Source of the DNA: Geothrix paludis
Lineage (GTDB): Bacteria; Acidobacteriota; Holophagae; Holophagales; Holophagaceae
Direction of reading: 5' to 3'
Length of the DNA: 64,000 nt
Assembly (NCBI RefSeq): GCF_022808815.1
Contig: NZ_JAKZLC010000001.1
Coordinates: 124,001 to 188,000 of the forward strand
Shown here: positions 51,922 to 55,137 of the stretch, piece by piece
How positions within the stretch are numbered: position 1 is the stretch's first letter
Layout of the letters: every line of letters begins with the position of its first letter
Program-made: the position numbers and the translations under genes
Notes under the pieces: generated by a model
Databases searched by the model: none
Seen by the model: the letters and a program-made list of their open reading frames with translations, nothing else
What the model was told of the DNA's origin: nothing

Positions 51922-52029
51922 GTTGGTTGCGGAAAACCACCAGAAGGCTCAGCCGGGGCTGAGCCTGGAGGGATCCATCGGGACCACCCATTGGACCTTC
52001 CTGCAGCGGGATTCTGAGACACTGAGGGT

Positions 52030-52140
52030 ATGACCGAAGACTGCCTGTATCTGATCGACGCCTTCGCCTTCATCTTCTCGGTATCCGCTGCCCGGATACG
52101 CGAGACCTCGCCGTTCGGCATGGAGGTGGTTCATGGGTGA
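52030..52140 (+). CDS. mini-ORF 1, polA N-terminus duplicate
   Basis: A 36-residue frame starting MTEDCLYLIDAFAFIF, the first 16 residues of a Pol I, then an unrelated tail SVSAARIRETSPFGMEVVHG. Its TGA overlaps the next ATG by 8 bases (ATGGGTGA). Only a weak ribosome site precedes it. It may be a leader peptide or a silent remnant. Confidence 0.3.
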   Translation: MTEDCLYLIDAFAFIFSVSAARIRETSPFGMEVVHG

Positions 52141-52243
52141 AGATCGCCTTTACCTGATCGACACCTTCGCTTTCATCTTCTCGGTATCCGCTGCCCGGAT
52201 ACGCGAGACCTCGCCGTTCGGCATGGAGGTGGTTCATGGGTGA
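52133..52243 (+). CDS. mini-ORF 2, polA N-terminus duplicate
   Basis: A 36-residue frame, MGEDRLYLIDTFAFIF plus the same 20-residue tail. It has GGAGGT 6 nt upstream, hidden in a small stem. The ATGGGTGA overlap with the next mini-ORF allows re-initiation. Confidence 0.3.
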   Translation: MGEDRLYLIDTFAFIFSVSAARIRETSPFGMEVVHG

Positions 52244-52346
52244 AGATCGCCTTTACCTGATCGACACCTTCGCTTTCATCTTCTCGGTATCCGCTGCGCG
52301 GATACGCGAGACCTCGCCGTTCGGCATGGAGGTGGTTCATGGGTGA
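52236..52346 (+). CDS. mini-ORF 3, overlapping the polA start
   Basis: A 36-residue frame identical in plan to mini-ORF 2, with its stop inside the polA start region (TGA 52344-52346, polA ATG 52339). Translation of it would open the ACCTC/GAGGT stem (52311-52315 with 52329-52333) and allow coupling to polA. Confidence 0.35.
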   Translation: MGEDRLYLIDTFAFIFSVSAARIRETSPFGMEVVHG

Positions 52347-55137
52347 AGATCGCCTTTACCTGATCGACACCTTCGCCTTCATTTTTAGGGCGTACTTCGC
52401 CAATCCGCGGCTGAAGAATGGCGCCGCCTACACCTTCACGCGGCTGGTTCTCCAACTGCTGGAGAAGCACCAGCCCACGCACATCGCCTGCGTGTTCGAC
52501 ATGCCGGGCCCCACATTCCGGCACGAGATCTACCCCGAGTACAAGGCCAACCGGGCGGAGATGCCCGAGGATCTGCGGCCCCAGATCCCCATGATCCGCC
52601 AGCTGGTGGAGGCGCTCTCCATCCCCATCGTGGAGCTGTCCGGCTACGAGGCCGACGACGTCATGGGCACCCTGGCCCGGGAATCCGCTGCCCACGGTCT
52701 GCCCGCGGTCATCGTGAGCCCCGACAAGGACCTGCTCCAGCTGGTGGACGACAGCCTGAAGATCCAGGTGCTGAACACCAAGGACGGCGAGATCTGGCAC
52801 GACCGCGAGGGCGTGAAGGCCCGCATGGGCGTGTGGCCCGAGCAGGTGGTGGACTTCCTCAGCCTGGTGGGCGACGCCTCGGACAATGTAAAGGGCGTGC
52901 CCGGCATTGGCGAGAAGGGCGCGGCCCTGCTGCTGGAGAAGCACGGCAGCCTGGACGGCGTGATCGCCGCCAAGGCCGACCTCAAGCCCAAGCAGCGGGA
53001 GGGGCTGGATGCAGCTGCCGAGTGGCTGGACCTCACGAAGCGCCTGGTCACGGTGGTGACGGATCTCGACCTGCCCCTGCACCCGAAGGATCTCGTCTAC
53101 TCCGGCGTGGACGAGGCCAGAGCCCGGGAGACCTTCAAGGCCCTCGGCTTCCAGACCCTCACCAAGGAGTTCACGCAGAGCGCCCGGGAGGCGGGCAGCG
53201 CCCGGACCTACCGGGCCGCGGCCACCGTGGCGGATCTGGAAGCCGCCGTAGCCGCATGCCGCGCCGCGGGCCGGTTCGGCCTCGACACGGAGACCACCAG
53301 CGTCGATCCCACGCGGGGGCACATCGTGGGCCTCAGCCTGGCCTGGGCGGCCAACGAGGGCCTCTACATGCCGCTGGCCCACCTGAAGCCGGCCACGGCG
53401 GATACGGAGGGCTCTCTGCCGGGGCTGCTGCCGGACTCGGGCCTGCCCGACGCACTGCTGGACCTGCGGGGCGATGCGGCAGCCTTCTTCGCCGAACTGG
53501 CGCCCCACCTCGACCCCCGGAATGTGCCCTTCGCGGAGGCCCGGCGCGTGCTGGCCCCGCTGTTCGCGGATTCCGCCGTGGGCAAGTGTGGCCAGAACCT
53601 CAAGTACGACCTCCAGGTGCTGGCCCGCCACGGCCTGCCGGTGGCCGGGCTGGCGGACGACAGCATGGTGCTGAGCTTCCTGCTGGATAGCGGTGTGCGC
53701 CACAACCTCGACGACCTCTCCGTGCGCCACCTGGACGTGAAGCCCATCGCCTTCGAGGAGGTGGTGGGGAAAGGCAAGGCGCAGAAGCGATTCGACGAGG
53801 CCGTGTTCGAACACGCCGTGCAGTACGCCGCCGAGGACGCGGATCTGGCCCTCCAACTCTGCGACAAGCTGCGGGAGCGGCTCACGGACGACCGTCTGAA
53901 GCGGCTCTACGAGGAGGTGGACCTGCCCCTGGTGGATGTCCTCGCCGCCCTCGAAGGTCATGGCGTCCGGCTGGATCTTGACGTTCTTTCCCAGCTCGGC
54001 GCGCGCATGCGCGCTGAGCGCGAACGAGCGCAAACCCGCGTGATCGAGCTCGCTGGCGAGCCCTTCAACCTCAACAGCCCCACGCAGCTGGGAAACGTCC
54101 TGTTCGGTAAGCTTGGCTTCCAGCCCGTGAAGTACACCGGCAAGACCAAGGCCCCCAGCACGGACGAGGACGTGCTGCAGGAACTGGCGGAGAAGCAGGG
54201 CGCCGAAATCGCACGGGAGCTCCTGCGCCACCGGCAGATGGTGAAGCTGCTGGGCACCTACGTGGAGGCGCTGCCCCAGATGGTGAATCCCGTCACGGGC
54301 CGGGTTCACACGCGCCTGCACCAGGCGGCCGTGGCCTCGGGGCGGCTGGCCTCCAGCGATCCCAACCTCCAGAACATCCCCGTCCGCACGGAGGAGGGAC
54401 GGCTCATCCGGGGCGCCTTCGTGCCCGAACCCGGCTGGGTGCTGCTGGACGCGGACTACAGCCAGATCGAGCTGCGCGTGGTGGCGGCCCTGGCCGAGGA
54501 TCCGGTGCTGCTGGGCGCATTCGAAGCCGGCGAGGACATCCACCGGCGCACGGCCTCCGAGGTCTTCGGTGTGCCCATGGACCAGGTCACCGCGGACCAG
54601 CGCAGCGCCTCCAAGGCTGTCAACTTCGGCCTGCTCTACGGCCAGGGGGCCTTCGCCCTCGCCGCCAACATAGGCGTCAGCCAGAAGGAGGCCAAGGCCT
54701 TCATCGAGCGCTACTTCGAGCGGATGCCGAAGGTGGCGGCCTGGATCGAGCATGCCAAGGAGCGCGCCCTGGCGGAGGGCCTGGTGCGCACCCACTGGGG
54801 CCGCATCCGCCGCATCCCCGAGCTGGAGAGCCCCAACAAGCAGTTCCAGGCCCAGGGCCTGCGCGAGGCCGTGAACACCATCGTCCAGGGCACCGCTGCC
54901 GACCTCATGCGCCGGGCCATGGTGCGTCTGCACCGAAGCCTGAAGGCCTCGGGCCTTCGAGCGCGCCTGCTGCTCCAGGTCCACGACGAGCTGCTCCTGG
55001 AGGCGCCGCCCGAGGAGGTGGAGCGGGCCTCGGCCCTGCTGAAGGAAGCCATGGAAGGGGCGGACGACCTGGGCCCCCTGGGCGTGAAGCTGGCGGCGGA
55101 GGTCCGGACCGGTGACAGCTGGCTGGCCGCCAAGTAG
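52339..55137 (+). CDS. polA: DNA polymerase I
   Basis: A 932-residue Pol I with all three activities. The N-terminal 5' nuclease (1-290) has RHEIYPEYKANRAEMPEDL and Asp clusters. The 3'-5' exonuclease is intact: Exo I LDTETTSVDP, Exo II QNLKYDLQVL, Exo III YAAEDADLALQL. The polymerase has LLDADYSQIELRV, KAVNFGLLYGQ and VHDELLLE. The start at 52339 is set by GGAGGT. It is unusual for the three repeated 5' ends upstream of it. Confidence 0.96.
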   Translation: MGEDRLYLIDTFAFIFRAYFANPRLKNGAAYTFTRLVLQLLEKHQPTHIACVFDMPGPTFRHEIYPEYKANRAEMPEDLRPQIPMIRQLVEALSIPIVELSGYEADDVMGTLARESAAHGLPAVIVSPDKDLLQLVDDSLKIQVLNTKDGEIWHDREGVKARMGVWPEQVVDFLSLVGDASDNVKGVPGIGEKGAALLLEKHGSLDGVIAAKADLKPKQREGLDAAAEWLDLTKRLVTVVTDLDLPLHPKDLVYSGVDEARARETFKALGFQTLTKEFTQSAREAGSARTYRAAATVADLEAAVAACRAAGRFGLDTETTSVDPTRGHIVGLSLAWAANEGLYMPLAHLKPATADTEGSLPGLLPDSGLPDALLDLRGDAAAFFAELAPHLDPRNVPFAEARRVLAPLFADSAVGKCGQNLKYDLQVLARHGLPVAGLADDSMVLSFLLDSGVRHNLDDLSVRHLDVKPIAFEEVVGKGKAQKRFDEAVFEHAVQYAAEDADLALQLCDKLRERLTDDRLKRLYEEVDLPLVDVLAALEGHGVRLDLDVLSQLGARMRAERERAQTRVIELAGEPFNLNSPTQLGNVLFGKLGFQPVKYTGKTKAPSTDEDVLQELAEKQGAEIARELLRHRQMVKLLGTYVEALPQMVNPVTGRVHTRLHQAAVASGRLASSDPNLQNIPVRTEEGRLIRGAFVPEPGWVLLDADYSQIELRVVAALAEDPVLLGAFEAGEDIHRRTASEVFGVPMDQVTADQRSASKAVNFGLLYGQGAFALAANIGVSQKEAKAFIERYFERMPKVAAWIEHAKERALAEGLVRTHWGRIRRIPELESPNKQFQAQGLREAVNTIVQGTAADLMRRAMVRLHRSLKASGLRARLLLQVHDELLLEAPPEEVERASALLKEAMEGADDLGPLGVKLAAEVRTGDSWLAAK

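Follow-up and report, generated by a model that had tools for sequence, protein, structure and literature searches.

A dispersed palindromic element, amplified in tandem at the 5′-end of polA in Geothrix paludis and probably expressed through coupled mini-ORFs

Introduction

MIRUs are short (40–100 bp) dispersed repeats whose copy number in tandem is variable (PMC12548453; PMC2734929), and they are said to insert at start codons, with a short ORF that is translationally coupled to the gene (2025 review, PMC12548453). Palindromic repeats of other kinds include the Rickettsia palindromic elements (RPEs), which are found inside protein-coding genes and encode a conserved peptide (PMC10969869), and the REP sequences, GTAG- or CGTC-tagged palindromes of 20–40 bp that are dispersed, some of them in tandem together with flanking DNA and some within genes (PMC3733652). 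Upstream ORFs coupled to a gene by way of a masked ribosome site, through termination–reinitiation or RNA unfolding, are characterized in turn by a stop codon that overlaps the next start and by a Shine-Dalgarno (SD) sequence that is present and base-paired (PMC6728339; PMC12548453). Our search of the literature on repeats in Geothrix or Holophaga returned nothing on point.

Here, we describe an array of repeated polA starts in a stretch of 64,000 nt of the genome of Geothrix paludis (NCBI RefSeq assembly GCF_022808815.1, contig NZ_JAKZLC010000001.1, positions 124,001 to 188,000 of the forward strand; hereafter, the window), each unit of which holds a hairpin, E, that is dispersed in this genome and in those of its relatives. 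The array resembles MIRUs in that its copy number varies between genomes (0, 1, 2, 3 or more) and in that the inserted ORF is, by its layout, coupled to the gene, in 31 of 31 polA units and at seven other genes. It differs from them in that the overlap at polA is of 8 nt instead of the −4 nt spacing described for MIRUs, in that the ORF opens with a copy of the target gene's own start instead of belonging to the repeat, as MIRU ORFs are described to do, and in that E is a covarying bulged hairpin also found at the 3′-ends of genes, with a duplication of about 70 nt of the gene end. RPEs stay in frame within the protein, whereas every polA mini-ORF terminates and the gene restarts from a duplicated start. 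Unlike REP sequences, the stem of E carries no GTAG or CGTC tag, and the Y1/RAYT transposase is absent from 12 of the 15 genomes searched. With coupled upstream ORFs the polA array shares the stop/start overlap, the SD and a structure that masks the SD, but it is a series of duplicated gene starts with an inserted hairpin. In our comparison, the E units thus appear to work like MIRUs, yet we do not file them as MIRU.

Results

An array of four polA starts

The original prediction, made from the letters of the window, was that the 5′-end of polA is triplicated, with four starts exactly 103 bp apart and three frames of 36 residues that each stop 8 nt into the next start. This spacing and these frames were confirmed (Table 1), each mini-ORF stop lying within ATGGGTGA, and the last of the four start copies is that of a normal DNA polymerase I. 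The triplication holds for the start copies (about 46 nt), but each 103-bp unit also contains E, a dispersed hairpin of 30 nt with a bulge, and a tail of 27 nt that includes a GGAGG SD. At polA, E has the form TCTCG-GTATCNNC-nnn-GNNGATAC-g-CGAGA, with a 13-bp stem and a single bulged G. Since 103 = 1 mod 3, every polA copy is in a new frame, and the terminator of every polA mini-ORF is the TGA of an ATGnnTGA sequence.

The array is the top tandem repeat in the window (TRF score, 638), and its copies are 94–96% identical over 144 nt; the other short repeat families of the window (D2–D9) were attributable to chance or trivial. A search of Rfam gave only two chance-level matches, well below the gathering score and neither of them on the array. 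Copy 1 is diverged (MTEDCLYLIDAFAFI) and has the native upstream context found at empty sites, and copies 2 to 4 are nearly identical to one another. The prediction had allowed for a single unit multiplied by the assembly; judging from the sequences, such an artefact is unlikely, because the units differ mutually and because arrays of one or two units are found in genomes of independent isolates and in single-contig genomes. The unit count of three in the window is that of the assembly, not of the reads.

Table 1. Positions of the features of the polA array in the window
Feature	Position	Strand	Remarks
Conserved block left of native start	52014..52024	+	CTGAGACACTG in the window; many relatives have CTGCCAGACTG; candidate −10 element
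Mini-ORF 1	52030..52140	+	36 codons; begins at native (orphan) polA start
Hairpin E, copy 1	52076..52105	+	TCTCGGTATCCGCTGCCCGGATACGCGAGA; family structure
Mini-ORF 2	52133..52243	+	36 codons
Hairpin E, copy 2	52179..52208	+	Family structure
Mini-ORF 3	52236..52346	+	36 codons; stop overlaps PolA start
Hairpin E, copy 3	52282..52311	+	Family structure
Anti-SD ACCTC, unit 3	52311..52315	+	Likewise 52105–52109 and 52208–52212; helix 2
SD GGAGG ahead of PolA start	52328..52332	+	Likewise 52122–52126 and 52225–52229
polA, DNA polymerase I	52339..55137	+	932 aa; PF00476 1.2e-139, PF02739 6e-51, PF01367 1.3e-26, PF01612 1.8e-23

Units at polA in the Holophagaceae

Units were found at polA in 23 of 53 species of Holophagaceae that were compared, and the site was empty in the other 30, where hairpin E is also missing. 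Carriers have 1, 2, 3 or more units, always of 103 bp and in one carrier decayed, in line with the variable copy number that had been predicted. The carriers are scattered over the tree, with sister species that differ in presence, and parsimony over the 53 species requires at least 16 changes between presence and absence. In L231, the hairpin of a polA unit has decayed, but the overlap of 8 nt between its mini-ORF and the following start is preserved; in G009, contigs break inside the array (L234 and L235), which implies at least three units in that species. An extra in-frame stretch, ALAHSRSAGKD, follows RSYF near the N-terminus of PolA in L116 and L119, and a 69-bp unit in G006 (L192) lies near polA but within a neighbouring gene.

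Units and gene body diverge together (Mantel r 0.79 overall, and 0.47 when Geothrix is taken by itself; p 0.0002), and codon identity was 0.674 for the starts behind a unit and 0.663 for the gene body. Recent horizontal homing of the polA unit is disfavoured by both results, and descent seems to have been mostly vertical. One codon signature, GCT GAG GAT CGC CTT TAT, is common to the starts behind a unit and rare in native starts, and these shared codons argue for a single origin. Some horizontal exchange of units is possible, to judge from the incongruence between units and species: the unit of the window is nearest to that of L097, and its polA body is nearest to others. There was no match in viral contigs, searched by exact pattern, or in plasmid collections. 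Internal units are homogenized with the gene-attached start (window copies 2–4, L090, L106 and L111), and the tails of the polA mini-ORFs are not conserved as peptides. The pN/pS ratios of orphan starts, of empty-site starts and of starts that follow a unit were 0.27, 0.11 and 0.04, respectively; purifying selection is weaker on orphan starts than on real ones, and gene conversion could contribute to the difference.

E is a dispersed element with two classes of site

Outside the array, E recurs in the genome of the window and among its relatives, as a palindromic hairpin that is of 30–35 bp family-wide. Searches with a degenerate pattern found 6, 9, 5 and 7 copies in four genomes and none with a reversed-pattern control, a 69-nt probe confirmed E in all of the 14 genomes searched with it, and a search of the relatives gave, besides polA, short matches to the hairpin only, by the dozen, in genomes of the same genus; these counts rest on pattern and DNA searches. 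The stem covaries, with 94.7% of cells paired and 42 double-side changes as against 17.6 in shuffles (0/500). Among 42 distinct E sequences and their flanks, neither end of the stem had a conserved GTAG or CGTC tag. PF01797 (Y1/RAYT transposase) was detected in three of the 15 genomes, the 12 others including many carriers of E, and a RAYT/Y1 transposase was rejected as a general mobilizer because it is absent from most E carriers.

The sites separate cleanly into two classes, A and B. In class B the stem is the same, no flank is duplicated and the right side is like GAGACnAACtGAtATCTGG (GAGACnAACtGAtATCTGGyGG); such sites occur at C1:477049 and C2:348463 in the window's own genome and at L082, L083, L169–L170, L173 and L175–L178, with further sites at L182–L188, L202, L206 and L207. 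Some of the class B copies are within CTTGGTGCCTTGGTG-type repeats. In class A the left flank is found again on the right side of E, and the distance at which this copy ends hardly varies: E plus the copied end measures 102–108 bp in 26 cases, and in four genomes 103–107 bp at nearly all loci and 155 bp at one. Minority unit sizes are of 68–69 and 155–170 bp, the latter mainly in biotin-carrier genes, where E is placed in the MKM biotinylation motif. The direct repeats that flank E have a near-constant length and are lacking at empty sites, as seen from filled and empty polA and rpsT. The junction with the intact gene is preceded by a short pyrimidine-rich stretch and followed by a T in nearly all cases.

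Class A sites are found at the 5′-ends of polA, uppS, manC (a mannose-1-phosphate guanylyltransferase-like gene), folP, a ThiF-family gene, cydB, a DUF502-like gene and a permease gene, and at the 3′-ends of rpsT, with its terminator, a putative rpsU, biotin-carrier genes, an NFACT/RqcH-like gene and an oxidoreductase-like gene. Some of these names are readings: the permease is named from its sequence only, the membrane protein is read as DUF502 and the NFACT/RqcH-like gene as such from fragments of 40 and 70 aa, respectively, that have no Pfam match, and rpsU and the oxidoreductase are likewise read as such. In the cases inspected, the intact gene is to the right of E and the orphan copy of its end to the left. 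If the insertion duplicates its target, survivors are bound to have this arrangement, the right copy alone keeping the junction with the gene body. The cleanest pair of filled and empty sites is at rpsT, filled in G032 and empty in its near relative G002: the orphan copy of G032 keeps the native downstream sequence of the empty site, and the gene-attached copy runs into TTGTTTTGCC and then into E. The two copies are almost identical, and have therefore been homogenized. In the polA units, the tail that links E to the start cannot be recognized as duplicated native upstream sequence; the longer duplication can therefore be seen at loci such as rpsT, but not at polA.

The genome to which the window belongs has a second class A unit (L253, at C6:16357), of 106 bp, in which the start of uppS is duplicated and the mini-ORF stop lies 8 nt before the true ATG. 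In the first or middle units at uppS and manC (L069, L070 and L072), the gene starts are strongly diverged (MTASTSPALI, MMSDTRGTRPVVAVV and MAVDSKENLVAIV), which hints at past exchange or drift. The ThiF-family gene (L191 and L201) has a hairpin at its 5′-end and another about 1085 bp further on, in the same orientation.

Evidence on translational coupling

Each of the polA units examined (31/31) reads from its start to a stop that lies 7 nt beyond the initial base of the following start, with an 8-nt overlap. Over the carrier tree, the 57 nt formed by E and the tail have undergone 134 substitutions, by parsimony, and no indels. The stem of the unit had been predicted to mask the next ribosome site; the SD is masked, not by the big hairpin E but by a second helix, in which ACCUC in the tail pairs with GAGGU at the SD. 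Across 23 polA units, 93.9% of the cells of this helix are paired and two of its pairs have changed on both sides, as against low values in slid controls. The predicted fold of the unit RNA has a z-score of −3.9 against shuffles, and its minimum-energy structure has the SD buried in a longer pairing.

The native starts are all ATG (51/51; 21/21 orphan and 30/30 empty), whereas those behind a unit are GTG in 13 cases and ATG in 10 (Fisher, 1e-8 relative to native and empty starts, the species not being independent). Ahead of the first start, an alignment of 51 species revealed a conserved block (A−11, 94%; A−9, 92%; C−8, 92%; T−7, 94%; G−6, 92%). A consensus scan gave no sigma-70 match on this strand; the block, at −16 to −6, could be a −10 element that places the 5′-end of the mRNA at the ATG. 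The conservation of this block, together with the invariant ATG, suggests a native polA start that is leaderless, or almost, and a different way of entry, by means of the SD and re-initiation, at the starts behind a unit.

Mini-ORFs at uppS, manC, folP and cydB and at the thiF-like, DUF502-like and permease genes stop between −16 and +10 of the next start, and one uppS unit stops at −20; some of the manC, uppS and DUF502-like units have an ATGA overlap. With the gene sequences fixed, the product of the null probabilities for coupling at the eight genes is 2.4e-4. The weight of this layout, by itself, would be modest, and it is only moderately unlikely by chance, because many genes start with ATGA or ATGnnTGA anyway. 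Several lines together favour translational coupling at polA, which we consider reasonably likely. The sequential re-initiation envisaged originally is partly supported: the layout, the constant length, the masked SD, the GTG-rich starts behind units and the differences in copy number between species speak in its favour. No role peculiar to Pol I has to be assumed to account for the repeat, because the dispersed hairpin family is also found at the 5′- and 3′-ends of other genes.

Discussion

The account that we prefer, and that we hold to be probable as a whole, is of a tandemly amplified insertion of a dispersed palindromic element, expressed by coupled mini-ORFs; that E behaves as an insertion element is its most secure part and very likely correct. 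E would have entered an ancestral polA about 46 nt into the gene, with a copy of roughly 70–74 bp of flank that rebuilt the 5′-end of polA to the right of E, presumably as a long target duplication. A single old insertion at polA would have been followed by mostly vertical descent, by many precise losses, in which recombination between the direct repeats may have restored the empty site, and by tandem growth to 2, 3 or more units. The promoter and the start native to polA would stay to the left of the array, and the mRNA should begin at the orphan ATG. As the conservation of the units suggests, the ribosome would then read the 36-codon mini-ORF, unfolding both E and the ACCUC:GAGGU helix on its way, terminate 8 nt into the following start and initiate again there, so that PolA would be made after n units. 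The element would survive where the duplication rebuilds the gene, coupling making a disruptive insertion tolerable. Each unit is at least a tolerated cost, and is possibly a gear that lowers or conditions PolA output; what speaks against a coupling role is the presence of the same element at the 3′-ends of genes, where translation cannot be its role.

One alternative shares the insertion with this account and differs on function. E units would be selfish, tolerated debris of an old palindromic insertion, of which only those at gene ends survived, coupling being the minimum required for expression and the number of units having no regulatory meaning. We regard this view as evenly poised. In its favour are the occurrence of sites at 5′- and 3′-ends alike, in housekeeping genes that are unrelated, the patchy distribution, in which sister species differ, the lack of peptide conservation in the mini-ORF tails and the weaker constraint on orphan starts, but neither the absence of indels among so many substitutions nor the maintenance of the anti-SD pairing is readily accommodated, and units are retained in nearly half of the species even though direct repeats of about 46 bp should delete easily.

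A dedicated, tunable control of Pol I translation, by sequential re-initiation along an array whose copy number is varied by recombination, would agree with the coupling layout and the constant unit length, with the range from 0 to at least 3 units between species and with the stability of the RNA fold; we nevertheless think it unlikely, because the element is not special to polA, being found at 3′-ends as well, and because most species have no unit at polA. Alternatively, the 103-bp units might be mobile cassettes, each bringing a gene end along and homing into the corresponding gene of another species. Such cassettes would explain why the starts behind a unit share a signature unlike that of native starts, and why middle units at uppS and manC have diverged gene starts; they are made quite improbable by the Mantel correlation with the gene body, by a codon divergence like that of the body and by the absence of matches in viral or plasmid collections. 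Plain tandem duplication, by replication slippage, of a segment holding the hairpin is the least probable, and very doubtful: internal units are homogenized with the gene-attached start, as unequal crossing-over would give, but it requires a hairpin at empty sites, where there is none, it cannot produce the single-unit loci, with one hairpin and two copies of the gene end, and the same hairpin and geometry of about 104 bp recur at unrelated genes.

The long, near-constant duplication at class A sites is a notable feature of the E units, which, by comparison with described systems, are closest in their working to MIRUs. More tentatively, and with rather more doubt than confidence, they may represent a new family of mini-elements that make a near-constant target copy of about 70–74 nt, can insert at the ends of essential genes without damaging them and, at 5′-ends, that of polA included, set output by the number of coupled mini-ORFs in the chain. 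If the insertion of E with coupled mini-ORFs is the true account, a tiny repeat would occupy essential genes non-lethally, by duplicating the gene end and letting re-initiation bridge the insert. Related species would then offer a natural series of 0 to 3 or more coupled mini-ORFs before the same gene, and such natural arrays would suit testing how the efficiency of re-initiation multiplies along a chain.
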